In this document: one piece after another, positions 9,601 to 60,660 of the stretch
How the letters are laid out: each line of letters opens with the position of its first letter
How positions within the stretch are numbered: the first letter of the stretch is position 1
Source of the DNA: Benincasa hispida
Taxonomy: Eukaryota > Streptophyta > Magnoliopsida > Cucurbitales > Cucurbitaceae
Reading direction: 5' to 3'
DNA: 64,000 bases
Assembly (NCBI RefSeq): GCF_009727055.1
Contig: NC_052353.1
Location: 39,687,614 to 39,751,613, forward strand
Made by a program: the position numbers and the translations under genes
Notes under the pieces: generated by a model
What the model saw: the letters and a program-made list of their open reading frames with translations, nothing else
The model's database searches: none
Told to the model about the DNA's origin: nothing

Positions 9601-12600
9601 AGCTCTTTCATTTCAAATCGGATTATTAGATTTTTCTTTATTTGTCGAACTTCGTCTATGTGGTCTCCTATTATGATTAGATCATCCACATAGACTAATA
9701 TGATTGTGACATTTGAGCCTTGAGCTTTGACAAATAAGCTGGAATCTGTTGGAGCTAATGCAAAGCTACTTTCATCTAGAAACTCTGCAATTTTCCTATA
9801 CCAGGTTCTTGGAGCTTGCTTTAAACCATATAAAGCCTTTTTCAGTTTGCATACGTAGTCATGATAAGCTTCATCCTCAAAACCTTTTGGTTGCTCCATA
9901 TATATTTCTCAATCTAGCTCTCCATTTAAGAAAGCGTTCTTAACATCCATCTGTCACAACTTTCATCCCTTACTAGCAACAAGTGCTAATAAGACTCAAA
10001 CAGTGGTGAGCTTTGCTACAAGATTGAACGTCTCATCATAGTCCAAGTCATATTGTTGAGAAAGAGTTACCAATCGAGCTTTGTATTTCTCTACCGTCCC
10101 ATCTGCTCAAGTTTTAATTTTGTAGACCTATTTACAAAATATGGATTTAACATCTTTAGGCTTCCGCACCAAGTCCCATGTTCAATTCTTTCTTAATGTA
10201 TAAATTTCTTCTTCCATGGCTTTTCTCCAGTGGACATTCTTTTACGTTTCTTCATATGTTGTTGGCTCCTCAAATGTTGCTAATATTGCATTCATTTACC
10301 TGGAGTTAGGTTTTCTTAGTCTTGTTGATCTCCGTAATTGTGGCTCTTAATTATGTAGTCCACTTTGTCAAAGACTTTGTATTCTTAATTGCTCTTCTTT
10401 GTCTTCGTCGTTTTCTTCTTCTCTTTCTATTAGAGCTCGTTGAACTTCACTTATTTATTCTTTTGGTTCTTCTTTGAAAGACTTCTCATCTTTGGGTGTC
10501 TTTTCTAATTCGAGTGCCCCTTCAACAAATATGACATTCATTGATGTATATCATCTGTTGGGGATGATGTCCTAAACTCTCGTTGGGTCCTGTAGTTTGT
10601 AAACATAGTATTGAACAAACACTTGTGATGTAATAATATATGATATTTTCTTCACTTTTGTCTATGGAACATTGGATGTTTTAATTGTTTTACCACGAAC
10701 CAATAAACTAAGATCCCTGATTTTCGTTGTAACTTAAGCATTTATATGGAGACATACAGGTGGATCATGTCTTAAGTGATAACCAAAATGGTCTGTAGTA
10801 TATGGACATAAGAGAGAAACCTTATTCTGGTAACGCTACGGATACGACCCGCTTTGTAGAATAGTTACAAGTGTTGTGACTTGCTACAGATGGTCTAATC
10901 CTGATCATTCTTGTGGAGACATGCGAGCGGGGCATCCTATACAAAGGAGTTTGTATAAGACCGGACCACGAAGTGTTATAGTCTCGTTATATAACGCCGT
11001 TTATGACAGAGACTTCACTTCACTAGAATAACCATAGGTAACATGACCTCAATCTTGAGTGAGTTGGGAACTTCTGCCTTTGAGGGTGGTCTTTTGATTT
11101 GCATGAGTGCGAGTGGCCAGATCACTGACTTAAACCTACCACTTTGGGGATTCATCTGATTTGGGAGCTGGGAACTCAGCTACACAAGATGGAATGCACT
11201 CCTTCCTCGAAGCAGAGGTAAGTAGATAGATTGCTCCCTTAAGGGCTGATTCCGGGACTTGAACAGTGTGGCGCCACACACCTTCTCATGGCCCAAGAGG
11301 TGTCCACACATAGTAAGACTATGTTATATTGTTCATTAGAGGGATCATTAGTACTTAAAGAGTTAGATGTGATTATAGAGGCAAAACGATAAATTGGCTC
11401 AACTGTACTTACGAGCATCTGTGAAGGGTTATCATACTGTTAATTGGTTATATCCGATGGACACAGAAATATATCTGTGGTGAGAAGAGCGCAGCTGTCA
11501 GTCTTTAGTAGAATGTGTGGCAGTTAACGAATGGTGGATCTCGTGGCTAAAGAGTTTAGTCAGCTATTCACGTACCGTTGGAGCTTCGAGCCATAGGTCC
11601 ATAAGGTCCCTTTGGTAGCTCAATGGATTCAAGTTGAGAATCAGTTTTTGGGTCAGTTTGAAGTGTTCAAATTGATAAGAGAGTGTTCAATTATATATGA
11701 TATGATTAAACTAGTCAATTATATATGATATAGTTGACATAATTATGAGATACAATAATTAGAGAAAAATGATATAAATATGATTTATATCTAGTAAAGG
11801 AGAAAATGACTAGTTCATATATTGCATATGATGTGATATTAAACCATAGGTTATAAATATAATATGATTATATTTATTTTTTTAATTAAACGATTATGGG
11901 ATAATTGTTGCCCGATTTTTTCTCCGTAACCAAATAAGTTAATAGGAGGTTGCATTCATTTTTTGTAACTGAAGGATAAAATGAAAATTGTTTTCATTTT
12001 GCAAAGGATCAGACATTCGCTCACCGATTGAGTACACTACATATCGCATGGCAAACCGAGAGCATACACGATAGCTCAAAGTTTCTAAACGATCGTGTAC
12101 ACGCACACATTTCCTAAATGATCGCATAGAATTACCTAAACGATCGTCTAGCTTTTTCTACGCGATCGCGCGCACGAGCGTTTTACTAAATGATCGTCTA
12201 TACGATCAAGCCCGTTTTACTACACGATCACGTACCTTTACCTAAACGATCAAGCATCCGTCTATACGATAGACACCTGATATCTCCCACTTGCTTGGTC
12301 ATGGTAAACGATCGTTCCTTCCTCCTTCCCTCTATCAAATCCAACAGAACCCACACCTCCTGGATTCTCACTCTAAGAATACCAAGGGTTCCGAGTGGTG
12401 GTGTCTTCCCTGCTGCCTTGTTCGTGAGTAGTCCGTTCGTGGGTGGACGACAACAAGATTTGGTGGACGATAGCTTGGACGATCCCAGCGACAGCGAGAT
12501 TTGCTTCCTTGACGGGAGCAAGATTGAAAGGCGAAAAAGAGTTCTTCAACTGGTATGTATCTTGTTCTCTTTGTTGTTTAAAGTTTAAAGCATGTTGTAA

Positions 12601-15006
12601 TTTGTTGTTAAGTGCATAACTAGTCTGTTTGATTATGAATGTGATAATTCTGTCACAATGAGTTTGGAACGATCTTGCTTCAGCTCAAAGATTTTTTTGA
12701 TAAGTGTTCCTTCATCATCGTCCACTGATAGGATCAACGTATCTCCACCCTTTTATTTGGTTATCATATCCAACAAAGATACATTTGGTTGCTTTCTTGT
12801 CAAACTTCTTTCTTTGATGGTCTGATACAATGTAATGACTCGGCTCCTTAGGACTTATACTAGGTCGTTATTACATGCATGTATACCTTTCAAATCAACA
12901 TTTTTCCATGATTTGGTAAAAACCAAATAAATACTATGAAATAAATAATTTTAATAAAAGTAAATAATTGAATTTCATTTAACAAGGTACCCTTAAAACC
13001 ATGAAACAAAACTAAAAAAATCTTTTAAAAAGTCCAAAAGCACAAATACTAAAATTTCGAGTCCAAACATCAAGACTAAAAATTTTGAAATATAAAATCT
13101 TGAAAACATGAGCGAAAAAATATGACTGGTCCCACTGGCTTAATCACAGATTTCGCTTATCATTTGTCGACATGTTATTTCCTTACATGAGAAAGATTGA
13201 ATATAAGATACTCAGCAATTAACCCCACTACTGGGATCAGGCTAATCATTTATGTCCAATAAATGCAATTTGAACTGAAACTCTATACTAGTAGGACCTA
13301 AAGATTTCTCTTACTTGAGTGACGCTTTTACGTTTTACCTTTCTCCTAGACGTGTGTCACTTTCACACACATCAGGTCCAATGTATATCTCTTTCATATA
13401 CATTGAACTCTCTAAGAATGCATCACTTTCGTACACCCCAGGTCTTCTCTATAAAAGTAGGGATGTGTACCTTTTTCATGCACATGGTTATATATACACC
13501 TCCTTCATATATACATCACATTGAGTGTGCACCTCTTTCATACGCCCTAGTCCCCTCTAGGTATGCATCACTTTCATACATACTAGCCGTGTGAACAAAA
13601 GTAAAAGCTTTCACTTTTACCGTGTGAACAAAAAAAAGAAAGGAAAATAGGAAATACAAAAGTTTACGAATAATTATTTTAAATAATAAAATTGTTGAAA
13701 ATATTTTCAAATATAATAAAATGTCATTGTCTATCAATGATAGATCACGATAAAATGCTATAGATATTTATCACTTATACTGATAGATGGCTAATGTGGT
13801 CTATCACTGATAAATAATGACATTCGGTTATATTTATAAATAAGTTGATCATTCCAAAATTTACGTAAAATCTCTAAAATTGAAGAAAAACACTTTTAAA
13901 AAAATTATCGTTACGAGAATACACTAAGGGGGCGTTTGACGCGCTTGAATTGGGTTGGTAATTATTATAGGAGAAGAGTAATTGGAAGAATTGATGCGAA
14001 TAACGAAATGAGAAATGTGAATTAACACAAATAACGAGGTAATAAACCTTTTTAATAATTTGTGAACCAAAGGGTGAGTAGGTTTTCTTTACCCACCCAA
14101 CCTAACCCAAACTTGGGGGTCAAATGCCCCATAAATAACATGTATTAATTAATTTGATTTTTTTAAAAAAATTATGAGTTAAATTTTATTATATTGTACA
14201 TCACTATTTAAATTAATTTTAAATTTTATTTAATAACTTTTAATTAATCAATATACATTAATGCAAAAATTGAAATTTCAACGGAAAAACAAGGATAAAA
14301 ATATAAATTTTAAAATCAAACAACGTTTAAACAAAACTCAAACATTAAATATAAAATGGTAAAATATTAAAATTTGTTAAAATTTAAGGGGGGAAAACTA
14401 AAATGTAATATTTGAGTGTGATAAAAATGTGACCTGAATGATAGGGAGAGAAGGCAAAGCCAAATCCCGGCGCACATTAGCAACAAACTTTTCCATATTC
14501 CACTGATACGCATCAGCATCATGTTCAGTAGAGGTGTCACTTTCTCCTTGAAACCACAAAATCGCCCTAATTTCCCCGCCGTCCTTCACGCTATATCTCG
14601 CCCTCTTCACCATTTCCTCATACAGCTTCTCCCCACGCGCCCACTCTCTGATCGCCGTTCCTCCGACGGCGCACGGTACCACCGCCACCGCCACCGCCCC
14701 CACACTCTCTCTCACTCCGTTCGCAAACACCATCCCCGGCCCCACCCCGCACGTCTTCTTTGTGTCGATGTCCGCGTGGAGTGGCTCACGCGCCGCCTCC
14801 CAATGTTTCTTCGCGCTCAGCCGGAATATCGACGGGTGCGGCTTTGCTTCTGGTGGAACCACGCCGTCCCACCGGTGGAGCTTCTTTAAGACCCCGCCGC
14901 GTCCCGCCATGTTGCTCTGCCCGGAGAGGATGAAGATCTGCTTGTTTGGCGGTGGATTGAGAGTTGGATTTGTGTGGATCGGATCTGGATCGGTCGTAGT
15001 CGCCAT
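6617..15006 (-). CDS. SASA/SGNH-fold carbohydrate esterase, two exons
   Basis: Exons at 14434-15006 (573 nt, 191 codons) and 6617-6841 (225 nt with stop) join in phase 0 across a GT (CAG|GTCACA) to AG (AACAG|GTAGCA) intron of 7592 bp, giving 265 residues, about the usual size of the Arabidopsis At4g34215-type family (DUF303/SASA). Catalytic blocks are all present: GQSNM with the nucleophile at Ser31, a Gly block in [18 protein letters not shown] as the block III equivalent, and DNLH (Asp229, His232) in exon 2. No signal peptide is obvious; the N-terminus is Pro/Thr-rich and hydrophilic. The family is expected to remove acetyl groups from carbohydrates, but the substrate of plant members is not well defined. 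The intron is stuffed with MITEs, a copia element, a solo LTR and an LTR fragment. The last codons (Pro-Ser-Ser-Ile-stop) appear to lie in a MITE terminus. Both exons are intact, so the gene may work if the long intron is spliced. Confidence 0.85.
7225..8113. mobile_element. Self-nested MITE stack: three left halves then three right halves
   Basis: Left termini of the TTTGGTAACTATTTGG family occur at about 7227, 7369 and 7531, each followed by that family's left half up to 'gaaaactaaa'. Right termini then occur ending at about 7831 (CCAAATAGTTATTAAACAGG), 7975 and 8113. After each right terminus the sequence resumes at the central 'agtttttaaaaagttgtttttg' of the family. This L-L-L-R-R-R order is what three successive insertions at the same central site would leave. 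It lies in the esterase intron. Confidence 0.7.
8120..8343. other. Intron spacer; nothing recognised
   Basis: Short unremarkable segment of the esterase intron between the MITE stack and the copia LTR. Confidence 0.4.
8344..8732 (-). mobile_element. 3' LTR of the minus-strand copia element (389 bp)
   Basis: The segment is bounded by TGTTGGAG at 8344 and CTCCAACA ending at 8732, an 8-bp perfect inverted repeat with the TG...CA form of LTRs. A purine tract (complement of ACTCCCCCTCAACACT, about 8771-8786) lies just inside. A 38-bp gap separates tract and LTR, so the true LTR start could be nearer 8770. No matching 5' LTR was found. Confidence 0.65.
8733..12830 (-). mobile_element. Ty1/copia remnant A (integrase end, reverse transcriptase, RNase H), split by a solo LTR
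   Basis: Reading leftward: an integrase C-terminal region at 12720-12830, then (after the 10556-12714 insertion) the linker and start of the reverse transcriptase (10100-10555), the palm domain at 9558-9950 with [15 protein letters not shown] and an intact YVDD, and the RNase H region at about 8900-9300 ([13 protein letters not shown]). Stops and frameshifts occur, for example near 9900, 10300 and 9590. The gag, protease and most of the integrase are missing, cut off at 12831 where another LTR-like sequence starts. It sits in reverse orientation to the DNA but in the same orientation as the host esterase gene, within its intron. Confidence 0.8.
10556..12714 (+). mobile_element. Solo LTR (2159 bp) with TCATC target duplication
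   Basis: Starts TGTTGGGGATGATGTCC at 10556 and ends GTGTTCCTTCA at 12714. It is flanked by the perfect 5-bp duplication TCATC (10551-10555 and 12715-12719). The reading frame of copia A stops at the left border and resumes at the right border in the same frame once one TCATC is removed, which confirms the boundaries. There is no internal coding region, so this is a recombination-derived solo LTR. Strand is taken from the U3-to-U5 order: the C-terminal part resembles the LTR end at 54005-54375. It contains a GATCG-rich stretch (12000-12300) with repeated 'acgatcg' words. Confidence 0.85.
12831..13640 (+). mobile_element. LTR-like fragment, probably Ty3/gypsy type
   Basis: Begins TGTAATGACTCGGCTCCTTAG, with an internal inverted repeat (TGTAATGAC...GTCGTTATTACA, 12831-12876), a start typical of some plant gypsy LTRs. 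It truncates copia A at exactly 12830. The segment continues with a 'gggatcaggctaatca' phrase and a tandem repeat at 13310-13600. The right end is not defined, and no gag or pol is seen. Confidence 0.4.
13310..13605. repeat. Degenerate tandem repeat of TGCATCACTTTCATACAC
   Basis: Variants of 'tgcatcactttcatacac' and 'gtgtacctctttcatacac' alternate with 'ccaggtcttctctaag' about every 30-45 bp, for about 7 copies. Long open frames here are a by-product of the repeat. Confidence 0.6.
13720..13815. repeat. Palindromic CTATCANTGATAG repeat
   Basis: TCTATCAATGATAGA, ACTGATAGAT and TCTATCACTGATAAA occur within about 95 bp, and TGTCATT near one end is answered by AATGACA at the other (13721 and 13809), so the segment can fold as a hairpin. 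The same family recurs at 23980-24471. Confidence 0.6.
13928..14130. mobile_element. MITE, 203 bp, GGGGGCGTTTGAC ends
   Basis: Terminal inverted repeats GGGGGCGTTTGAC (13928) and GTCAAATGCCCC (ending 14130). The match continues inward through TTGGGTTGG / CCAACCTAACCCAA for about 30 bp. The left flank is TAA and the right flank ATAA, compatible with a TAA-type duplication of PIF/Harbinger-like MITEs, but the duplication is not clean. It lies about 300 bp inside the esterase intron from the exon 1 donor. Confidence 0.7.
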
Positions 15007-15045
15007 GATTTTGGGATGCGGATGGTTGTGGTGGTGGTGGTGGGT

Positions 15046-15052
15046 TTTTATA
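15046..15052 (-). promoter_or_regulatory. Candidate TATA box of the esterase gene
   Basis: On the minus strand a TATAAAAA-type hexamer lies 40 nt upstream of the ATG at 15006, followed by a CCACC-rich leader. If used, the 5' leader would be only about 10-15 nt. This is position and motif only. Confidence 0.4.
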
Positions 15053-15199
15053 TTCCGTCGTCACGGTGGTTGGGTGTTAAATGATGAATGGTTTGTTGAA
15101 AGGAAATACGTGTTTTGGCTTTTTCTGGTGGAGGAAAAAAGAAGCCGACTTATTAATCCCTTCTGTTATATTTTGTGTGCATGCGAAGCTAAGAACACC

Positions 15200-37932: not shown

Positions 37933-40900
37933 TGTTGCCCACAGCTTCCAGAGGACGCTCCTCGTCCTCTACATCTCGAGCTAATCCCATGTATCTGCAG
38001 TACCTTCGTCGAATCGTCAAGGTTCTCTCTCTCCCTCAGATTATGCCTATTTTCCATCTCTAGCAGATCCGTTCCATATCTTAATCAAACTGCTACTTTA
38101 CGCTTCCAATTTGTAGACGATTCATCTTCCCGAATATGCCTGATGAAGGCTGTATGAGATTATCTGATTTGGTGTTATCGTTGTTTGAGGAATTTTTATG
38201 CCATTATCATTTTTCTCAGTGTTGTTATTAGTTCGTTCTGAAATTTTCTTCTTATTTTGTATTTTAGCCGCGATTCTTTTTACCTGCTTATTTTTGGTTA
38301 GATCATTGCTTGTTCCGTTATTCGTTATTTACAGTACGCTTTTCAACTACTGTTTGATCTTCGATGTATTGAGTATGGTGCCACGTGGAGTCTTGGATCT
38401 TGTGAATTCAAGCAGTGAGTTGGATAGTTCAGAGCTTGGTCGTGTTTGAAGAGAACAAGTTTCAGTTGTTCTCTGGATTTGTAATATAATTTAGTGCTTC
38501 CTCAACATGCTTTGGCTAGTTCTGTTCTACTTGAAATCTTGTCATATTCTTGTTTACAAAATAAATTGTCGGAAATTGGGCTTAAAATGAAACTAATTTT
38601 CTTTCAATTGTCTTCTCACCTGACGTAGCTTGCTTGCTTCCATAAATTTAACAAGTTATCACTTTATCTCTCTGCTTGCAGTGGCAACAAATGGACATCG
38701 AATATACATTCTGGCAAATGCTTCATCTATGCACTTCACCAAAAGTTGTGTAAGTAATTAGTTCTTATTTGCCTGTTGTCACTCACTAAGAGCTTAAGCA
38801 AACTTTGTTTCAAGTTTAGTTTTAGCCCATTCCTAATCGTTGGTATTTGGATTTTTGTTGGAATTTTGCAATGGACGCAGCTATCAGCATACCAAGTATC
38901 ACAAACGTAAGTACAACTCACATCAAAGAGTTCTTTTCTGTTTTCTTTTGCTGATTGTAATGGTGCTGAAGAATCTGTTAGTGTACTCGTGATTTAAGCT
39001 TATTTATGTGTAGTCCAGTTTACAAGTTTTTTGGATCTTTTTCAATATCCACTGTACCCCTTAACTTTGTGGTGAGTTCCTCTTATAGATAATCACTAGA
39101 TTCACTACCAATGTAACATGCTACTAGGTGAAGGCAGTGAATATATACTTAAATTCAAAACAAAATATTTTCATAAAAAGATGCAGGGTTTTTATACTCA
39201 GGTTGATACATAGGGGAAGCTTATTGCTGTAGTTTAAATTTTTAGTTAAGATATTGGTGAAATAGGTGATGGAGCCTTGGAGGTGGACCATTAAATTTTC
39301 GGAGACTGATTCTTAGGTCTCTGACTCTTGATGGTTTGTGTGCTTCCCTTAGGTCTCAATTCTTGCTTGTTAGGATTCCCCTTTTTGTTGTGTTGGGATG
39401 TTTCTCATAATAATTTTCTGTTAATCTCAGAAGCTATAGGGTGGAGAAGTTATCATGAATCTTAAATCATAAGCTTTAAAAGTAGAATTTCAAGTCAAAA
39501 TTTAATATTTTCTAATCAACAGATTGGTTTCTAATTATTTTCTTATTCATATAGTGGTTTCCAGTTGTGTTGAAACTTGTTGAGAGGTATTGGTGTGGGC
39601 TTTGCAAGTGTTCTGTTAAATTGATGCTTTTTGAAAGAATCGGTGATTGAGCCTTGTGCATAAGAGATTGAAGTGTAAAGTGATAGAGATGGATCTTTTA
39701 TGTTGAGGATCTTATTCTTAGTTCCTATTTGTTTGTACGCCTTTCTTTTTCCCTTTGTGTTGGATATTTCTCATATCCTCTTTCTGTTTCGTTAGGATTT
39801 CGTTTGGTGTAAGCTAGATACTCTTTTTTGGAGGGGATTTTTGTAACACACATTAGCCTTGGTGGCCTTCCTCCCTTTCGCATATTTCATTGCATTAATG
39901 AAATTTGTTTCCCTTTCCAAAAGGAAAAAAGATAAAGAATATATATATATATTTGTAACAATAGATGTAATATGTATAGTATAAAGGTTTTCCGTATATT
40001 AAAACTAAAATGAAAAGTTCTTTGCTTTTTTCTTGTGTCAGAAACTAAGAATCAGTGGGCACGTGACGATCCTGCTTTTGTTGTGATCTGCAGTCTTCTT
40101 TTGGCAGTTGCGACTCTGGCTTACTGTGCTGCGTAAGTGTAGCCAATGCTTCTATGCCGTATCGCTTTGTTGATTTATTTTATTATGAAGCACACATCCG
40201 TTATGGTACGCCGTACCCAAGATATTTGTGTGTGTGTGAGGGAGAGAGCAAAAGTCTTGAGAAGGTCTTTCAGCCTCTCCCTCTTTCTCACCAAGAAAAA
40301 TATACATGCACTCACACCATTACCTAAACAAGAGGTACACGAAAGAAATATGTATACCTGTACGCTTCATGTGATAACCAATATCCTTTTTCTTGATGGG
40401 TACAATTGGACCTTTTCCCCCCATATATACTTCTTTGTATGAAGTTCCCTATTTAGAAATTAAGCTAACTTATCTCAGTTGTGTTTTCTGATTGTCAAAT
40501 TTTGTCAATAATTTCAGATATGATCATAGTGCTGCACATGCCTCTTTTGTAGTTATTTCTGTACTGCTCTTCCATTTGCTAATAACTGGGGCGATTTTGG
40601 CAACTTGTTGTTGGTAAGTTATTTCCCTGTTGTATGTGCATGTTACTACATGATTTTACCAACAAATTTTTTTTTCTATGTACGCAAGTACTATTCATCA
40701 TTTGCTATGATCTCGAATGCTTATGTACTACATATTGACTGATAGTTTGTTCTCTTGTCTGTCCTGATTTTCCCTTAGGACTTGAACGGTCCTTATAAGA
40801 TGTGCCTTTTCTAATGCTCCCCCGACTTTAATTTCAGCTGTTTGTTTCTGCACTCAGTGAAATAGGCATATGGACAACATGAATGAAAGTTATAAAGGGT

Positions 40901-43900
40901 GATCAGTTAGTTTGACTACACGATAAAAACATTCTCAGAAGGATTTATCTCTTTAATTTCAGCTGTTTGTTTCTGCACTCAGTGAAATAGGCATATGGAC
41001 AACATGAAGGAAAGTTATAAAGGGTGATCAGTTAATTCGACTACACGATAAAAACATTCTCAGAAGGATTTATCTCTTTTCGTGTATTTTGGTGGATCAT
41101 ATCTCTTAGACAATGGTTGACTGCACTGAGGATATGAACCATCCTAATTTGATGTAGTATAGTAAATCTATTACTTTCCTGTTATCGTATGTTGAGCATG
41201 CATTTGAATAATTATGCATTCTATTAGGGTGTGTGTGCTATTTTATGGGGGCTTTGAAGTGAGAGAAACTGTCTTCAGAGAGGGTATGGTAGTTCTTCTA
41301 ATGATGTTAGGTCCTTTGTTAGATTCTCTATTTCTCTCTAGGCTCCAGTTTCTAGGCTTTTTTGTAATTATTCGCTTGATCTTATTTCTCTTAACTAGAG
41401 TTTGTTCTTGTAATTTGGCTCCTTTTTGTGGACTTTTTTTGGGAGGTGTATTCTCTCATCTTTCCTTAATAAAAATCAAGTTTTCTCACAAAAACAAAAA
41501 TATAATAAAAAAAGAACTTGTGCATTTTTTTAAATCAGCTAAGAGATGTGGCTTAGAATAGGGAATCTAGCTGTTTCCCTTTTCCTTGTTGAGATCCTCT
41601 GTTCTCTGATTTAATTTTATTGTAGATATCTTCGTTAAATTAAATTATGTTGAAGTTGGTTCTTAGCCTTTATCAACCTTTCAATGCTGAATTATTACCA
41701 CAGTTGACCACTTGAGCATTTTTACGTAATCATTTCCAATCTTTATTGTTCAAGTAATTTTTCAGTATGCTGATATAACTCTTATTGGGAAAAGAGGTAT
41801 GCTGCTGTAATTTATAGTGATCAATTACATTACTTGAACGTATTTTCAGGTTGCTAACAAATGCTTACCTTCGGGAAGAGACACCAGGCAGTCATGTAGT
41901 TGAGCAACGGGTTGAATGGCAAGATCTACGACTCTCACCTCTAGCTTTATTCAAGATTGCTTATATCTTCAGTTAAACTTCTGTCGAGCATCAGTTTTTA
42001 GGACCAAACTACTATTTTTTGCAATTTCTAGGCCTTGTTGATAACCATTTGGTTTTTGGTTTTTAAAATTAAATTTATAAACACTACTTCCTCTCATGAG
42101 TTTCTATTTTTATTATCTATTCTCTACTCATGTTTTAAAAAACGAAGCAAACTTTTGAAAACTTAAAAAAAGTGGTTTTAAAAAAGTAGTATTTGTTTTA
42201 AGAATTTGACTAGGAATTCAAGTATTTCCAATAAAGGTAAAAATTAATAGAAAATTTGGGAGGAAACAAATAGAAATTTCAAAAATAGAAAACTAAAAAT
42301 GAAATCGTTATCAAATGGGAACTTAGAATTGCGTTTTTAGTGGCCTTTTGGGTTTTAGTATTCTTTTATGTTTACCCAATGTCTTTCCTTTGAGCCTTCT
42401 AAATTACTGGATGATATATCGTTTATTTATTTATTTATTTTCACTGGTTCTAGGCTCTATGCATTTGATGTGCACTGCAATTCTTTCTTCCCGATGTTTG
42501 TTTTGCTTTATGGTAAGTATGGTAAGGGCTTCCGTTTTTGTTCTGTTTTCCAGCCTCTATGATGCTAGTCTGAAGTCTTGGTTTCGTTGCAGTTATCCAT
42601 TACTTTATGTCACCGCTTCTGGTGGCCCATGGCTTCATTCCATTATTGCTGTCAAATTTGCTTTTCATGATTGGGACTTCGTATTACCATTATGTCAACT
42701 TTTTAGGCTATGACGGTAAGCTATATTTTCTTTCATGTTCCTATCTGGTCATACACCTTCTTTTTGTTGATTGCATAAATAACTCAAGCAATATTGAACC
42801 AGAGAGGACAAGCCTTTTTCTCTTCATGGCTAGAACTTTTGGTTCTCTAGAAATTTTAGGTGGGTGCCATTTAGGAAGTGCTTTGGATTTTAACCTATTG
42901 TATCTACCACGTTGAGGTGAGATTAAGTGTGGTTTAGGATGGCTTCTGAAGATTTTCTTTTCGACATAATGATAAGACATTTATACGCAAGTACTTATAG
43001 GAGAAGGATTAGTTATGTGCCTGTGCCTGTCCGAAGAGTAAAGTAAAAACTATATTTGTTCGAAAAGATACTTTTAATTAGTTAAAAAATACTTTCCAGC
43101 AAAGAAATTGGGTCAAACTCATTCAGTAATCTAATGAGTTAAGGGCGTGGTTGAAGGGTAGGACGGAGGGAGGGGGTAGTGGGGGGGAGTTAGCTGGTGA
43201 AATTAAGGCAGATTTTAATTAAGTAAAAAAATAATAAAATAAAGAAAAGACAGACTTTAATTCAACGGATGGCCTGTGAATGAGATGAATAGTGTTGGTT
43301 AAAACTTAATACGAGTTTGCCGTTCGTGGAGGTGAGAGGAAGTGCATGTCCCCAACTCCTAGCTCTTCTTAGTCCACAAACATAGTCTTCTTCAAATGAT
43401 ATCATTTATATTTTTCAAATTAATCAGTGTTGGTATGAGACAACCCAATGATATTAGATGTTACTGGAGGGAGGATTGATCAATGACACATCAGTGAAGG
43501 AAATCAATAACTAAGGCCTAGTTTGATGACAATTTGATTTCTTATGTTTGATTTTTGGCAATCAAAATTGTAAAATACTACTTTCACCCTTAAGTTTCTA
43601 GGTTTTGTTATCCATTTTCTATTAGTGTTTTCAAAAACTATGTCAAGTTTTGAAAACTAAAAAAAATGTAGTTTTTATTTTAAAATTTAACTATAAATCA
43701 AGTGTTTCTTTAACAAGGTGAAATCTATAATTGAAAAATTGGAAGAAACAAACATGTTATTTGCCGTTTCTTATGGGGAAAAAAAATCAAGTGGGCCTAA
43801 GTTCCTGTTTTCTAGTCAAATATGAATCCATAACTGAGACCACTGATATATTTGAGTTTGTCTTCCCAGTTTCCCATTAGCCGTAAGCTTGCATCCACGA

Positions 43901-49954: not shown

Positions 49955-50720
49955 CTCTTTCAAAAGGTCAGCCATTTTCTCCTATCAGATTTATGTCGTT
50001 AATCCTTTAATTTTTTTCCTTCTCTCCAAGTTCTCTCCAGCCTAGACTAGGATTTCACAAGGGCAAAGTTCAATAACAAGAAGAAAGTATCAAAATTCCA
50101 ATGGTTTGAGCTTGGAAGCAATACAAATGCACACAATTCAATTTTTATGTTTAATAGATTCATTAATTTTAAACGTATTAAATATGTTAGATATATATTA
50201 GTGACATTTATAAAGTAGAAGCTTGTTAGGTACAAATTTTAAAGTTCAAGGACTATTTAATTCAAAAACAAGGAAAATTGAACGAAATAGCAAGATTTCG
50301 GGTTTATTTGGATTTTTGAAAAAAATAATAATAATAATAAGATTTTTGGCAAAACAATATGCCACTTGTGCGAGACCAGTTTTTTTTTATAATACCCGGT
50401 GTGCCCTTCTTGTAGTCTTTTATAAAAGATATTGAATACAGTGTTATTGCTATAACGGGAATCAATTTGGAATGGAAATACAGTGTAATTGAGTCGGTGT
50501 TAGGCTCAATAGAGTGTGATCAACCAATAGAATAAAAAAAGATTCAACCCAACTTTCAATCTATGGATAAAAGATAGCCACACAGCTTCATAGTGGCCTT
50601 ATACATGGTAGAATAATTTTGCTGAAGTTGTCTTTTAGCTAGGCTTATCGATTTTGAACATGCAAATTTCAGATCTTTCACTTCTTTCTTCTCTGTTTTG
50701 TTCTCTCAGGGCAAAAATTA
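49955..50720. other. No gene seen
   Basis: Contains an AAT microsatellite at 50322-50340. The right part (about 50450-50720) may be outer LTR sequence of the adjoining copia, but I cannot define a border. Confidence 0.4.
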
Positions 50721-50878
50721 TGGTTTCTTGCAGAGTTAGCTCGATTTTTTAAGTTTTCTCACAATTTCATGAAGGACCAAAGATGATTAAGAAGTAGAAG
50801 AAGGGAATTGAAGAAGAAACACAAAAATTTAAGTGATTCAGCCAAGATACCTACATCTACTATGCAAAAGGAAGGGTA
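50721..50878 (-). repeat. Direct repeat copy 1 (LTR part of copia B)
   Basis: About 158 bp starting TGGTTTCTTGCAGAGTTAG and ending at the AAGGGTA near 50878 is repeated, about 90 percent alike, at 58829-58986 in the same orientation. Copy 1 lies 3' of the copia B pol on the minus strand, where a 3' LTR belongs. Confidence 0.7.
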
Positions 50879-53800
50879 TTTTCATTATTTTTGTTTAGTA
50901 GAGATTTTACAAGAATGAGTTCTCTCTTTTTCTCACTTTTGTTCCTATTTTATATGTAGATATACAAAAAGATTAAGGAGCTGCTTTAAGCTTAGGTAGT
51001 TACAACAGGAAAAACTATAAGACTTTCTTTCTTCTTGAACAATATCCAACTTTGTAAGTACTAAGCAGGACTCTCCAATTTTTCTGGGCTGACTATCTAC
51101 CTTCTTTCGGGTAGCTCAAACCTGAGGAGCTCAAGTCAATGATTGAGTTTGATTTGAGGCACGGATTTAGTCAACATGTCAACTACGTTATCTGAGGTAT
51201 ATATCTTGATTATCTCGATCTCTCCATTTTCAATTTCTTGTTTGATAAAGTGAAATTTTATGTCAATGTATTTTGTTCTACTATGAAATTGCTTATTTTT
51301 AGATAGGTATATAGTACTTTGGTTATCGCAATAGATTCTCACAGTAGACTAATTGACCCCAAAATCACTAAGTAACCCTTTTAACCACAAGCCTTCTTTT
51401 ACACCTTCGGACAGAGCTATAAACTCTACTTCTGTTGTGGATAGGGCCACAACAAATTGTAGGCTAGCCTTCTAACTCACCAGGTTATTTCCCCATAGGA
51501 ATATATATCCTGATAGAGAGTGTCTTTTGTCTAGATGTCCAGCATAGTTTGCATCCACATAGCCATAGATTTCATCATTTGAAGGATCATTCTGTTTATA
51601 TAAGATCTTGGCTTCTTTAGATGAGCATAGATACCTCAATATCCATTTGATTACTTCCCAATATCGCTTGCTTGGATTAGATATATACTTACTAACCAGG
51701 CTTGTAGCATAGGATAGATCCAGTCTAGTGGATGTCATTAGGTATATTAGAGACCCCACTATCTGAGAGTAAGGTATGGTTTTCATTTAGTTTATGTGCT
51801 TTTTATCAGTAGACTTAGGGTTGTTTGCTGCTAAGAGTTTAAAATGATGTGCTAGAGAGGTTATTATTGGCTTGGCATCACTCATTTTAAATCTCTGAAG
51901 GACTTTGTTACAATAGTCTGACTGGCTTACATAGAGTTTGGATTTATTTCTGTCTTTAATGATCTGAACCCCTCGGATTCTTATTGATTCCCTTAGATAT
52001 TTCGTGTCAAACTCATTCTTTAGAAGAATCTTGACTTGTTTAAGAACTTTCTGAGAGCTCTCTACAAGTAACATGTCATCATAGGAGCAGATACACAACA
52101 TCTTCAAAACTTTTGGTATTTGTATAAACACACCAATCATAAGAGCTTCTTTTGAATCCTATTTTGGAGACCACCTCGCCAAATCTGTCATGTCAGCACC
52201 TAAAAGACTTCTTAAACCCATATATTTATTTATTTAATAAACAAACTAGATCTTCTTCTTTTTTTTTTTACATACCCCTGAGGTTACTTCATATAGATGG
52301 TTTCACACAAATAACCATGTAGGAAAGCAGTCTTCACATTCAATTGGTCTAACTCCAAATCCTTCTGTACAACTAAGGAGAGGAGTAGCCTAATTGATAT
52401 TTGTTTCACAACAGGATGGAACACTTCATCGTATTCTATGCCTTCTTTCTGTGTGAACTTTTTAGCAACAAGTCTTACCTTGAACCTAGACTTTTGGACT
52501 CTAGGAATCTCTTCCTTAAATTTGTAGATCCACTTACATGAGATCGATTTGTACCCTTTTGGTAAGGGTACTAACCTCCACGTATCATTTAGATTGAGTG
52601 ACCTCATCCCATCATTCATGGCCTAAATCCATTGTCTAGCATCAGGACTATTAGTGGCTTATTCAAAACTTGTAGGTTCATTGTTGCTTAGTGAAATGGC
52701 AGCACTCAAAGTAACATTGGCAAAATCTGATTATGCATATCTAGTAGGGGGCACAATAGTTCTTCTTGTCCTGTCTCTTGCTATGGAATAGTTCTGAAGG
52801 TCTTCTTGTGTCGCTTTTTATTCACTAGACATATTTTCCCCAGCCTCCACAATGTCTTCACTTTTAAATTCTAAGTTCTGTTGTGAAGTAGAGGTTTTAG
52901 AGACATTTTGTGACTCCACCTCAAACCTTGTGCTACTAATTTTGGGCATAGCTGCAGGTTGCTACTATGTTAGCATATACATCTCAATTTCTCTGAACAC
53001 CACATCCTTGCTATTAATACATCTCTTCTCAATAGGACGCCACAACCTGTACCCTTTAACTCCTAGTATGAAACCTAAAAACATACACTTTACAACCCTA
53101 AGTTTCAACTTTCCTTGGCTTTAGTACACATACCCCACACCCCTAAATATCTTCAAGTTTTCCAACTTGAGAGGATGTCCAGTCCACTTCTCCTCAGGTG
53201 TTTTTAACTCAATAGAGTGGTGTGGACACCTGATTAGGGTATAGATTGTATAGAAAACAACTTCTGCCTAGTATTTCTTAGGTAAGAGTGTATTTGAAAG
53301 TTGACATCTTACACTTTCAAAAACTATTCTGTTAAGCATTTCAGCCACTCCATTTTGCTGAGGTGTATACCTCACTGTCTTATGTCTCACAATTCCATTT
53401 TCCCTGCAAAACAAGTTAAATTCCTCTCCACAAAACTCTCCATCATCAGTCCTCAAATGTTTAATATGTTTAGAAGTTTGTTTTTCAATTAAGGTTTTCC
53501 ATTATTTAAATTTCTCAAAAATATCATCTATAGTTTTTAAGAAATATACTCAGTTTTTTCTTGAAAAATCATCAACAAAATAAAGGAAATACTTTGCTCC
53601 ACTTAGAGAGAGAAAATGAGTTGGACCCCATAGGTCTGAATGCACATACTCAAGAGTTTCCTTAATGGTGTGCTGCCCCTTTGGAAAACTCTGTTTCGTT
53701 GTCTTTCCAAGTATGCAATGCTCACAAAAGTGCAAGTTATTTCCAATCCCTTTAGAAAGTATGCCCTGTTTTGATAGGACTTGCAGCCCCTTCACACTAA

Positions 53801-54004
53801 TATGAGACAATCTCTTGTGCCAAAGTTCATCTTCTATAAGATCTCCATTTGAAGCTATTAAAGCTGATTATGTCATCTGAACATATTTGATGACATACAA
53901 GCCATCAATTTTTGTAGCCACTAGAACCACTTTTGAGTCTTTAATTATCTCGAAAGTCCCTCCAACTCCTCTATACTCACACCCAATGGAGTCAAACATC
54001 CCTA
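50879..54004 (-). mobile_element. Ty1/copia remnant B (gag-pre-integrase, integrase, reverse transcriptase, RNase H)
   Basis: Reading leftward from 54004: an integrase zinc-binding block (HCILGKTTKQSFPKG, about 53690; HSDLWGP, about 53640), an integrase core piece (VRYTPQQNGVAEMLNR, about 53370), the reverse transcriptase N-terminal part (WIYKFKEE..., 52284-52619, with LDQLNVKTAFLHG), and the palm. In the palm the YVDD site reads CSYDDML (about 52075), so the first part of the motif is changed while both aspartates remain. RNase H pieces follow at 51472-51786 and 51136-51342 (YCDNQST). Stops and frameshifts separate the pieces. The 5' part (gag, protease) is absent: at 54005 the element is interrupted by an LTR of another copia. 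Confidence 0.85.
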
Positions 54005-54375
54005 TGAAGGATCTCATACCGAAGAGTTCCATGAGCGCGTTCGGATCGCTCCGATCTCACAGTGACTGAAATACAACAATATACATTCAAACGCACAGTT
54101 ATGCAAACAAATCTTAATTAACGACATGTTATGAACAAGATATAACAAGGGAGAGAGTGCCATACCAGTTGATGATAATCTTCAATCTTCGGAACTCAAC
54201 ACAACGAAACCCTCCACTCGATCAACCACGCCCAGCAGCAGTGTCGACTACAACAGCACGAACAACCGCACGAACACAAAAGTCGGGGGGACGACATCAC
54301 CAGAAAAGAGCCCCGGGTATTCTCGGAGTGAGAATCCAAAGCATGGTCTTTGTTGAATTTGGTAGAGGTCGGAGG
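54005..54375 (-). mobile_element. 3' end (U5 side) of the LTR of copia C
   Basis: On the minus strand this ends GAGATCCTTCA at 54005, like the GTGTTCCTTCA end of the solo LTR at 12714. It also shares GGATTCTCACTC, TCAACTGGTATG and ATCTTGTT in the same order. Only about 370 bp of an expected ~2.1-kb LTR is present; the rest is cut at the adapter at 54376. CCCTA (54000-54004) would be the 5-bp target sequence, but the second copy is not visible. Confidence 0.65.
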
Positions 54376-54413
54376 CTGTCTCTTATACACATCTAGATGT
54401 GTATAAGAGACAG
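54376..54413. other. Nextera mate-pair junction adapter (Tn5 mosaic end palindrome), sequencing artefact
   Basis: CTGTCTCTTATACACATCT (54376-54394) is followed immediately by its exact reverse complement AGATGTGTATAAGAGACAG (54395-54413). Each half is the 19-bp hyperactive Tn5 mosaic end used in Nextera libraries. The two halves back to back are the junction produced when mate-pair fragments are circularised. It has no place in a plant genome. It marks a chimeric join: an LTR end on the left is spliced to the RNase H region of a copia on the right, with the intervening LTR and 3' untranslated region missing. Confidence 0.97.
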
Positions 54414-57400
54414 GTAATAGGCCTAGACATATCTAGAACAGCTTCCAGTTCTGTCAAGAACTTCTTGAGCCAAACGACCTTCTTACAGCTTCGCAAGCCG
54501 CTATGTACTTCGCCTCCATAGTGGAGTCAGCGATGCACCCCGTTTTAATGCTTCGCCACATTACAGCTCCTCCGCTAAGAGTAAAGACTGACCCTGATGT
54601 GGACTTGCGAGAGTCCTTATCAGTCTAAAAGTCAGAATCCGTATATCTTGTAAGGATCAAATCCCTAGAACCATATACGAGCATGTAGTCTCTTGTTCTC
54701 CGAAGATACTTGAGGATGTTTTTCACTGCAATCCAGTTACCCTGGCTTGGGTTAGACTGATACCTACTGATTATGCCCACAACGTAGCAGATGTTTGGAC
54801 GAGTACAAAGCATCACGTACATCAAACTACCAATGACAGATGCATATGAGACCCGTCTCATCTCCTCAACCTCTTGATGGGTCTAAAGACACATGTCCTT
54901 AGAAAAAGTGAATCCATGCCTGAACAGCAGTAGGCCCCTCTTGGAGTTCTGCATCGAGTACTTGAGTAAAATCTTGTCAATGTACGATGCCTAGGACAGT
55001 TCTAGCACTTTGTTCTTATGATCTCGAAAGATCTGTATACCTAGAAGAAACTGAGCCTCTCCCAAATCTTTCATTTGGAGTTGGGTCACTAGCAAGTTCT
55101 TAACTGCAGTCAGTAGACTTACATCATTCCCAATGAGTAGTATATCGTCTACGTACAACACTAAGAAGATTACTGAAATGTTGATGATCTTCTTACAGAC
55201 ACAAGATTCATCAACATTTTGGTCAAAGCCATACGACTTGATCGTAGTATAAAACCGTATGTTCTAAGATCGAGACGCCTGTTTCAGCCCATAAATGAAT
55301 CGATTCAGCTTGCGAACCTTTTGCTCTTGACCTTGGACTATGAATCCCTCGGGTTACACCATCTAAATGGTCTCCTCAAAATTGTCATTCAGAAAGACCG
55401 TTTTGACGTCAATTTGTCAGATCTCATAATTATAATAAGGTGCAATGGACAGGAGGATGCGGATCGACTTTAACATGGCAACAGGCGAGAAAGTCTCCTC
55501 ATAGTTGACTTCCTCTACCTAGGTATAACCCTTTGCCACAAGTTGAGCCTTGAAGGTCTGTACCTTCCCATCAGCACCCCGTTTGCGCTTGTAGATCCAT
55601 TTATAACCTATAGGTCTTACCCCATCAGGCTGATCTAGAAGATCCCATACTGAGTTGAAGTACACCAACTTCATCTCGAGATCCATGGCCTTGATCCATT
55701 CATCCCGGTCAACATCCTCCATTTCCTTCTTATAAGACAATGGATCTTCAACATCGCCATTTGCTACCATAGCAAGGATTTTCGTGAAATCCAAATAGCG
55801 AACGGGTGGGTTCGCAACCCTCCAACTATGTGGAGGTTCCCTCAATACTTGAGGTGGTATCGACCTACTGGACAAACTCCCATCAACAACCCTTGCTGAT
55901 GTAGTAGGCTTTTAAACAACTCTTGTTGAAGTTTCAGTAGTTTCATTGGAAAGTTCACGCAACACGACTTTACTTCGTGGATTATGCTCCCTTATATGAT
56001 ACTCCTCCAGAAAAGTAGCGTTTGTTGAAACAAATACCCTATTTTCCATCGGATCATAAAAATAACCCCCTCGTGTACCTTTGGGGTAGCTTACAGAGAG
56101 GCATAACCTCGACCGTGGTTCCAACTTCTTGGGATTAGCCTCAAGCACATGTGTAGGGCAACCCCATGCGGAAGTGGACGTTAAACTAGCTTTACGCCCG
56201 TTCCACAAACTCCAGAGGTTTTTCTTGCAAAACACCTTGGAGGGAAACACTAACATACATTTATATAGTATCGCGCGTCTCATTGCGAAGAAACCCTAAA
56301 ACGGATCTGGATTAAGGAAGCGTAACTTCCTCATCGAGCGAACAATGGTCTACAAGGTCCTTATTTCCTCCTTCTCCGCTACACCCATTCTGCTGAGGTG
56401 TACGGCGTGAGAGTTGGAGAACTAAGGATTCATTCTCTGATCGCGCGACGTAATCATTCTATTCAAAAAATAGGGTCCTGGGAAAAGTCGAATCCAAAAT
56501 CTCCACTCGATCCGATTGGAAGTGTTTTAAAATCATCTATCCAATGGCATTTTGTTCAAACTTCAGCCTTTGAATCTCTTTGAAACTTTTCAAAGGATTC
56601 AGGACTTCCGTGCATAAATTTAAACCCATACCCGTACTTGGAGTAAATAAATCCAATAAAACTGATACAATAACTCAATAACCACCTCGGGCTCGGGCAC
56701 ATTCATAGGACCACAAAGGTTAGGGAAGTACTTAACTCAAGAGGGCCCCTTTGCTCTATAATCTTTTCCGTAAAAGGTTTCGTTTAAGTCATCCTACCCA
56801 AGGCAAATTCGCACACTGGTTAAAAGAATTTTCTCTAACTCATTTAGAAGTTTTTTTAGTTTTGGAACCAATATATACATTATTTAAAGTAAGAAATCTA
56901 TTCTGTAAGCTAACTGAAGTCCTCCCACTGCCACAGTTGAGACGACGTGCCCGGTGTCTACTCGCATCGTCATCTCACTAGTCTCCAACTGTCGCCAAGA
57001 TCTAATCCTCTGAAAAAAAAAGAACAAATATGGTTAGTGATGCCTGAATCAATCTAGGCAGAATCATCATTCTCCACTAAACAAGTTTCAAGAATAAGTA
57101 AATCACATTTACATTTATTAGCCTTGTCCTTAGCCTTGGCTGCTTTCTTCTCTTTTAGATACTGAGGACAGTTCCACTTCCAGTGTCTATCTTGGTTGCA
57201 GTGGAAACAATTTCCCTTAGCAACCTGTGGACGCCTTCTTGGGGCGACGACGTGGATTAGCAGGTGCCTTCCCTTTTCCCTTACCACTATTCTTCTTCTT
57301 TCCTTTTACAGAGTTAGAAGCAAAAGGTGCAGACTTCGTTCCTGAGGTTGAACCTCTATGGAACGTCCTGGAGGATGAAGCAACATTTACCTCACCCTTG

Positions 57401-58030
57401 TTCCTCTTCTTACTTTTCAGTAAAAATTGGTAGGTCTGCAACTCGTTGAGGAGAGTTGTAAGGTTATATTTCACTTTGTTAAGAATCACATTGCTAACAA
57501 AGTGCAGGAAGCTCTCCAGCAAAGAATGCAGGATTATGTTAACCTGGCTGCCCTTATCGATGGTAGACCCATTCAACTCCATCACATTAAAGTGGACCAT
57601 CATGTTTAGCACATGTTCACGAACAGAGGTGTCTTCTTCCATTTTGGAGTTGAATATGTATTTAAGAGCTTCACACATAAGTTGTTCAAACGGTTGTCCA
57701 AACATCCTCCACAGGGACTCCATGATCTCACACGTTGAGACCATAGGCTCATGTTTCTTGGTCAAGACTTCAGAAAGACTTGCTAAGATATAGGTTTGGG
57801 CCTTTCTCATTTGCCCTTGTCCATCGTTCGTATGCCTCCCGAATATTTCGAGTGGCATTTGGAGCTGGAATAGGAGGACAAGCCTCCGTGAGAGAGAACA
57901 TGAGATTTTCGATGATCAGGATCGTCGTGATCATGTGTTTCCATATTGTGAAATTATCGCCAGTAAGTTTTTCGGCGCTTAGTAATACTAACGTGGCTAT
58001 TGCTATTTTGAAAATGTTGCTGAAAATGCG
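54414..58030 (-). mobile_element. Ty1/copia remnant C (gag, integrase, reverse transcriptase, part of RNase H)
   Basis: Reading leftward: gag start with LTEACPPIPAPNATR (about 57850-57890), a gag body at 57217-57858 ending in a Lys/Gly-rich linker, a CCHC zinc knuckle (CFHCNQDRHWKWNC, about 57180-57215) in another frame, a poorly kept protease and integrase zone (56290-57050), and an integrase C-terminal/linker segment (55912-56283, SAWGCPTHVLE). The reverse transcriptase start is at 55519-55875 (WIYKRKRGADGK) and the palm at about 55130-55170. RNase H follows at 54414-54861 ([26 protein letters not shown]). The RNase H is cut short by the adapter. Several stops and frameshifts mean no full polyprotein. 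It is inserted in copia B. Confidence 0.85.
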
Positions 58031-58828
58031 AACAAAACTTTATTAGATTTTACTAAACCACTTTTAAACCAATCAGTTTTGCAAAACAGTTTCAAGTGCC
58101 CTAAGATATAGACTTCTATTTTGCAATGATGCCCCAGTGAGGCAGGACAAACGTCACCGGTGGGGTGATTAGTTGCCCCTTCGCTGAGATGAGGCATTCT
58201 CAACCATTAGGCAGAACAAACTCTTGGAACTGAACCTAACAGCTTCCATTTTTTGGTCCAGAATCGTTAACCTTTAATTATTCCGCGTAAGTGTAATCCC
58301 TCGCTTTCCGTGCCAGAGTCCAACCCTAATGAGCCAATTGTAGGGAAGAAGCAGATCAGGACAAAAGACTAAGTTGCCTTATCCTTTTACAGGAGATCAA
58401 ATAAAGAAACGCGCAAAACTGCCATCCTTTAGGGGGACACTCCCAGGGTGCCTCGAGGTGATGTGCAGTAACTTTATTCAACCTAACGAGGGAGACCGAG
58501 GGATATGCTGTCGCACTTCCCGCTTCCACTTACTATGAACACTCTCTACATCCACCTTGATATGACTTACCCAAACACTATCTGTTAGGGGGACATGCCA
58601 AAAGTTCCACGAGGTCAAGGGTAGATCTCACGGTATGGACTATTTAGGAGAAACGTGAAAGGTTTAAGTGAAGTATCTCATGCCCCAAGTACCTCCCACT
58701 GAATTTTCTACCTAGGGGTTAATTAACCTAGACAATCCGACTACTGATTTTAGTCTAAGTCGTCTTTTTAATCTCTGTTCATAAACAACGTTTGTCTATG
58801 ATATATTAACAAGTTCAAGGGCAACAAA
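58031..58828 (-). mobile_element. Untranslated leader of copia C
   Basis: About 800 bp between the gag start and the start of the copia B LTR copy. It is relatively GC-rich with repeated TTAGGGGGACA (58428, 58586) and GAGGT(G/C)A words, and no coding capacity. The expected 5' LTR of copia C (about 2.1 kb, by comparison with 10556-12714) is absent to its right, so it was deleted or lost in assembly. Confidence 0.45.
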
Positions 58829-58986
58829 TGGTTTCTTGCAGAGTTAGTTCGATTTATGAAGTTTTCTTACAATTTCATGAAGGACCAAAGATAATTAAGA
58901 AGTAGAAGAAGGGAATTGAAGAAGAAACACAAAAAATTAAGTGGTTCGGCCAAGATGCTGACATCCACTGTGCAAAAGAGAGGGTA
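58829..58986 (-). repeat. Direct repeat copy 2 (LTR part of copia B)
   Basis: Matches 50721-50878. Immediately after it the sequence CTTCTTTCTTCTTGAATA (58987) resembles 51022-51039 of copy 1, so about 140 bp present in the left copy is deleted here. Confidence 0.65.
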
Positions 58987-58989
58987 CTT

Positions 58990-60660
58990 CTTTCTTCTTG
59001 AATAGTCGGTTATTAATTTCGAATCAGGCGAAAAATGTCCACTTCTGAGTTCTATAACTATTTTTCGGATCTATTAAAAAAAATCAATCTATCATTTTAT
59101 CTCTCCATTTAAATTTCAATTTATTGTAAATCTTTAAAATTTATATTATCTTTTTATTTTTTTTTATTAATTTATTAGTTTTTTATTAATATATTTAATT
59201 CCAACTGATTGATTTGTCTTGATTCTTCGATTTTTTTTTATCCGTTTTAGCACTTATCATAATGTTATAGTTATGTTTATATCAGTTTTCACCGATTAAC
59301 TAACATATAGTTACACATATAGTGTAATAGTAATATGAAGCTATGAGATTTAACTAATCTACATTTACACATACAATGTAATTGTAACGTAGATTTATGA
59401 GTTTTTAACCATCATTTTTTTTCGTGATTAGTTATTATAATAGAATCTTTTATCTTCCTGATTTTGCTCCATGAATATGTATCCAAATCTATCTTTTGTT
59501 ATAATACTCGATTTATTATTATTATTATTATTATTATTTATACATTTTCTTATCAAATTTGGTTTCCTCTTATTCTTTTTCGATTTATTTATACATTTTG
59601 TTATTAAATTCAATTTTTTATAACATTTTTTTGAATTGATTCAATTTTATCTAATTCTTTTTAATTTTTTTATACATTTAGAGATTTGTATTCTATCACA
59701 GTTTATCTATTTTTTTTTATTTCATGCATTTTTTCGTTTATATTATTACTATTTATATAATTTTATATTTTTAATAATATAATATAATAATATATCATTG
59801 TCATATATAAAAACTATAATATTTGTGTATCTTGTAAATTTAAATAAATTATAATAAATTATTGGATTTTTTTTCCTTTTAATTTTATGTTTTAGTGCCA
59901 AACTAATATAATTGAGAAGATAACTAACTTATGTTTGACACGAGATTTGAAAATTCTGTATTTAAGTTGATAAAAAGAATTAAAATTTTGTAAATTTTAA
60001 ATTTAAGAGGGAAAAGTATCAACCTTAATTGAAATTATATATATATATATTTCACTTTTTTGGAAACCCAATAAATTTCTATCAAATTTGAAATGTTTAG
60101 ATTTTGTTTCAGAATCCAATTTTAATATAATTAAATAAATAAAAAGTAAATAAAAAAATAAAAAGGAAAAAGAAAATGTAACCGTAGGTGAACTTTTTTT
60201 CTCTTTCCCACTTTTGTTGTTCTACCATATTCCACAATCGCATACCATATCAAGTGTGCTTTTTTTTTTTTTTTCTTTTCTTTTCCTTTCCTTTTCCTCA
60301 CTTTTTTGTTTGTGTATGAATCATACCATCAATAGGTTCAGGTGTGTTTTTTTTCCTTTTTCTCACTTTTTTTTTGTTCATCAGTTTCTAATCGATAGCC
60401 ATTCAACTTCCATCTATGATTTTCTTTTCTTCAATCGTTTCTTCTTCTCTATGATAGTGTGTATTGTGGTAGCATGACGAAAAGGAAAAAAAAGGAAGAG
60501 ACATTGTGGTTGTGTGAAGAATGTTTTCAAATCCCTAAGTTCTTTTTGGGAGGGAAACCGAAGGGAGAGGAGAAAATTTTTAAATCCCTAGTTTCTTTTT
60601 GTTTTTTATTTGAGTTTTGGTGGTTTTAGTTTTAATTATTTTTTATTTTCTATGAATGCC
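58990..60660. other. AT-rich spacer; no gene seen
   Basis: Very AT-rich. Contains an ATT microsatellite (59513-59537) and a poly-T/CT stretch (60256-60300). No domain is recognisable in any open frame. Confidence 0.5.

Follow-up and report, generated by a model that had tools for sequence, protein, structure and literature searches.

We found that 38 bp within a plant genome assembly, almost certainly that of wax gourd (Benincasa hispida), have with near certainty the sequence of a mate-pair junction adapter. They lie in a window of 64 kb, by which we mean the whole stretch of DNA that was analysed, and they are a known assembly artefact and no biological feature. Very probably, an adapter of the Nextera type went untrimmed and became part of the assembly, where it links two repeat contigs. 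The sequences on its two sides are probably not true neighbours, and their adjacency should not be relied on.

The 38 bp at 54376-54413 (CTGTCTCTTATACACATCTAGATGTGTATAAGAGACAG) consist of the reverse complement of the 19-bp Tn5 mosaic end followed by the mosaic end itself (CTGTCTCTTATACACATCT and AGATGTGTATAAGAGACAG, respectively), and the whole is exactly self-complementary. The two halves adjoin and match without a single mismatch (Table 1), which bears out the preliminary description of a perfect palindrome made of the mosaic end and its reverse complement. No further match to the 19-mer was found in the 64-kb window with up to three mismatches allowed, a threshold at which 0.01 matches are expected, and none of 100 shuffles held two matches at that threshold. 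The 19-bp sequence derives from the ends of the transposon Tn5/IS50, and we take it to be the engineered form that is called the 'mosaic end' and that belongs to the Nextera kit. The TruSeq, Nextera read 1, Nextera read 2 and SMRTbell sequences had no exact match in the window.

The same letters, or the same arrangement, have been described in published protocols. The exact 38-mer turned up in a single paper by full-text search; according to its accessible part, it was used as a biotin-labelled 'ring adapter' to circularise sonicated fragments of ~4 kb by ligation (PMC7357533). In Nextera mate-pair libraries, as the accessible text on NextClip explains, the transposase puts a 19-bp adaptor on both ends of a fragment and circularisation unites them; by default, NextClip seeks 34 of the 38 bases of the adaptor pair, one forward and one reverse-complemented (PMC3928519). 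The same kind of junction adapter, together with its trimming, appears in the available passages of two further papers (PMC6298255 and PMC4074385). The Nextera kit itself is the likely source of the adapter, yet it is unproved as such because the same 38-mer also served the ligation-based circularisation protocol (PMC7357533).

By exact scan, at least 120 stretches of genome_contigs, a collection of bacterial and archaeal genomes, and seven stretches of viral_contigs contained the 38-mer. Among the 80 genome_contigs matches listed, the titles named 17 organisms and, except for one stretch (L025), said whole genome shotgun. The 38-mer was found in none of 20,395 records of complete E. coli genomes. 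It mostly accompanies draft assembly, and it is not restricted to draft genomes because five of 72,556 plasmid records carry it. Two to four copies of the adapter per 8-kb bacterial stretch were seen in L025, L041, L044, L057, L061 and L075, which represent heavily contaminated public assemblies.

The 2019 draft genome of wax gourd B227 was built with ALLPATHS-LG and PBJelly from three paired-end libraries and another five of the mate-pair kind ('2 and 8 kb'), as stated in the accessible text of the paper, where the word Nextera does not occur and the kit is unnamed (PMC6856369). Since mate-pair libraries were used for the B227 draft, we infer that the window comes from that assembly. A 2023 paper on pf3 treats B227 as a previous draft by the same authors and describes that draft as incomplete and highly fragmented; the accessible part of this paper lists PacBio, short-read and Hi-C libraries for the pf3 genome (GCA_027475165.1) and no mate-pair library (PMC9905507). 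The term 'mate-pair' is also absent from the accessible part of the paper on chieh-qua A36 (PMC11186066). In the window, an esterase reading (14398-15060, minus strand) was identical to a Benincasa hispida protein in 193 of 196 aligned residues, with no difference over residues 1-192; the three differences fall past the end of the exon, in a part of the frame that enters an intron, and the next cucurbit matches were at 88%. On this basis, the window is almost certainly from wax gourd. Together, the letters, the length, the palindrome, the recurrence in draft assemblies, the printed adapter descriptions and the mate-pair libraries of wax gourd support the earlier proposal that a mate-pair junction adapter lies within the assembly.

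We then turned to the sequences that border the adapter. The left flank is the tail of a repeat, because its alignment with a copy near 12.3 kb (Table 1) was well above shuffles, with 230 of 364 columns identical and a score of 139.5, where the highest of 60 shuffles reached 36. This alignment took in 332 of the 366 bases compared, and the similarity extended right up to the adapter. Upstream of the cut, the 12.3-kb copy (11820-12320) had no similarity to the right flank, the score of 22 being matched by 151 of 200 shuffles. A weaker match to the left flank was detected at 2-3 kb (score 59, compared with a shuffle maximum of 35). The flank had been described as the last ~370 bp of an LTR; the repeat tail stood, and the end of an LTR is one reading of it. 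A candidate primer-binding site at 54059 was at shuffle level, its best match of 9 of 12 bases being equalled by 162 of 1,000 shuffles, and was not used.

On the right, a 55-residue piece (54460-54624, minus strand) matched 35 proteins, of which the best four are named melon gag/pol and were 71-76% identical. In the three-frame translation, the reading runs on in another frame up to the adapter. The ORF at 54625-54882 had no Pfam match, and no profile match covers the putative RNase H stretch. Where the preliminary description had placed the middle of an RNase H domain, a cucurbit gag/pol reaching the adapter was confirmed, and the part beside the adapter is probably copia RNase H. Five of the 35 matched proteins were inspected for pol beyond the break, and all five were short or truncated near the same point. 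A single intact element cut by the adapter was also considered and was not supported: against the stretch that precedes the right-hand gag (57.9-59.1 kb), the left tail scored 28 on both strands, within the range of shuffles. A ~190-bp repeat occurs in the same orientation on either side of the adapter region (50708-50899 and 58818-59006, 87% identical), and the pair may represent LTR tails of a copia family.

Table 1. Features in and around the junction adapter, with positions in the window.
Feature	Position	Strand	Basis
Second copia-type pol, RVT_2 and gag_pre-integrs, left of the adapter	51787..53867	-	Pfam matches
LTR-like repeat tail that stops at the adapter	54044..54375	-	Alignment with 12321-12674 (+)
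Junction adapter, first 19 bp (Tn5 mosaic end)	54376..54394	-	Exact match
Junction adapter, second 19 bp (Tn5 mosaic end)	54395..54413	+	Exact match
Degenerate copia pol, presumably the RNase H region, cut at the adapter border	54414..54882	-	Melon gag/pol match, three-frame translation
Copia-type gag-pol, RVT_2, SH3_retrovirus and Retrotran_gag_2, further right of the adapter	54991..57915	-	Pfam matches

When a read crosses a mate-pair junction, its left flank is where a fragment ends and its right flank where that fragment starts, so that in the genome the right flank should precede the left. We examined this order at bacterial junctions, 101 of 147 being tested and 46 left out for lying too near the end of the locus, for too many N or for a further adapter in the flanking sequence. 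At 30 of the 101 junctions, the locus held a flank in duplicate; the two sets of control points, displaced by 1 kb, gave 9 of 106 and 6 of 107. Of the left-flank copies, 14 of 18 were downstream (both controls combined: 5 of 10), and of the right-flank copies, 17 of 22 were upstream (both controls combined: 7 of 12), in loci that come from few genomes and in which one duplication may count on both sides. For these reasons, and because 16 of the 40 second copies lay within 400 bp of the adapter, too close for a multi-kb insert, the flank order is a tendency and no proof, and the adapter can also occupy locally repeated, otherwise continuous sequence. The raw tally of flank duplications (88 of 143 versus 18 of 140) includes matches via neighbouring adapters and hence is not our main figure. 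Identical 9 bp on both sides were found at one of the 143 tested junctions of the fetched loci.

The route by which the adapter may have entered the assembly can be outlined as follows. During library making, a 19-bp sequence would have been attached at either end of a multi-kb fragment before circularisation united the two. A read across the joint would run from the fragment end through the 38-bp adapter to the fragment start, and an assembler or gap filler would have taken in such a read and linked two repeat contigs through it. The library route for the adapter is established, whereas we infer which read was involved, at what step of the assembly it was taken in and that the join is false. 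We are surer of the identity of the adapter than of the false join, since 16 of the 40 duplicated flanks in the bacterial loci lie so close by. Counting for it, the left repeat ends at the adapter while its 12.3-kb paralogue continues as sequence unlike the right flank. Both flanks are cut at arbitrary places with no shared 9-bp target duplication, as at a junction adapter, the right-hand cut presumably falling inside a domain. A chimeric read had been named as the source, and an adapter junction was indeed taken up as genome sequence, but an ordinary untrimmed mate-pair junction read also looks like this. With an ordinary junction read, the right flank is expected one insert upstream of the left on the plus strand, so that a missing 3' end of pol with more LTR is not the sole picture of the gap. 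On the plus strand, the circularisation rule would have RNase H precede the LTR tail, as is usual for an element on the minus strand when it is followed from pol to its 5' LTR.

Alternatively, the adapter might have dropped into otherwise correct sequence, with flanks that are true neighbours, for example in an old nested or deleted retrotransposon. A retrotransposon-like repeat on the left and a copia pol on the right, both on the same strand, are plausible in a repeat-rich region, and the bacterial flank copies found close to the adapter suggest that it is often in local sequence. However, a mate-pair junction by construction unites fragment ends that are kilobases apart, as the accessible NextClip text indicates (PMC3928519). 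The left repeat is also cut exactly at the adapter, where its paralogue continues differently, and no short flank duplication was seen at the window junction. We therefore give true neighbours a small chance, well below that of a false join.

A real insertion derived from Tn5, whether natural IS50/Tn5 or a transposon engineered with mosaic ends that had integrated or excised in the plant, was rejected, and we consider it exceedingly improbable. The mosaic end is a working substrate of the Tn5 transposase, but the natural outside and inside ends of Tn5 differ from it. The two ends in the window abut with no transposon body between them, and the sequences on either side of the 38 bp, GGTCGGAGG and GTAATAGGC, differ, so that there is no 9-bp target duplication. 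The presence of the same 38-mer in many unrelated draft assemblies further argues against an insertion. That the palindrome truly belongs to the plant DNA, through an engineered Tn5 end integrated in a cucurbit retrotransposon region, is somewhat harder still to credit. Hardest of all to credit is a chance palindrome, a plant satellite or a transposable-element motif, which was refuted by the two exact adjoining 19-mer matches, set against the small number expected at three mismatches, by the recurrence of the 38-mer elsewhere and by its letters, which equal those of the adapter printed in the accessible part of the ring-adapter paper (PMC7357533). An untrimmed junction adapter that falsely joins two repeat contigs is thus the explanation that we prefer.

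The window has other marks of assembly. An 88-bp perfect direct duplication around a single N (2454) at 2366-2542 probably represents two overlapping contig ends scaffolded side by side, and a single N at 33910, within a run of G (7 G before and 13 after), is probably another unresolved assembly gap. Both would fit a scaffolded short-read assembly. A 125-bp tandem duplication at 40826-41075 (98% identical) is either real or an effect of assembly.

The false join matters for data quality only, in that repeat nesting, element ages and distances across 54.4 kb are unsafe. The earlier warning that distances and nesting across 54 kb are unreliable is upheld, given the left repeat that is cut at the adapter and the different continuation of its paralogue. 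The wax gourd assembly merits screening for the 38-mer. With at least 120 affected stretches in a single microbial genome collection, such contamination is widespread, and a screen for it is simple; the order of duplicated flanks, where these are present, provides a further test.

Finally, we compared the window with known systems. Relative to Tn5/IS50 ends, those in the window stand head to head, without a transposon body and without a target duplication. Draft assemblies of bacteria (L001-L120) and viruses (L121-L127) contain the same exact 38-mer inside their contigs. In the draft bacterial loci the duplicated flanks are mostly in the order predicted by circularisation, whereas neither flank in the window has a close second copy; the nearest second copy is a diverged repeat at ~12.3 kb, unlike the duplicated bacterial flanks. 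The ring adapter is identical to the window 38-mer letter for letter, as printed in the accessible part of its paper, and was made by ligation, not by transposase (PMC7357533). With the 38-bp Illumina Nextera mate-pair junction adapter, which the accessible NextClip text describes without printing its letters, the window shares the length and the arrangement of 19 bp and their reverse complement. The two do not differ within the 38 bp; what sets the window copy apart is its misplacement inside assembled sequence.
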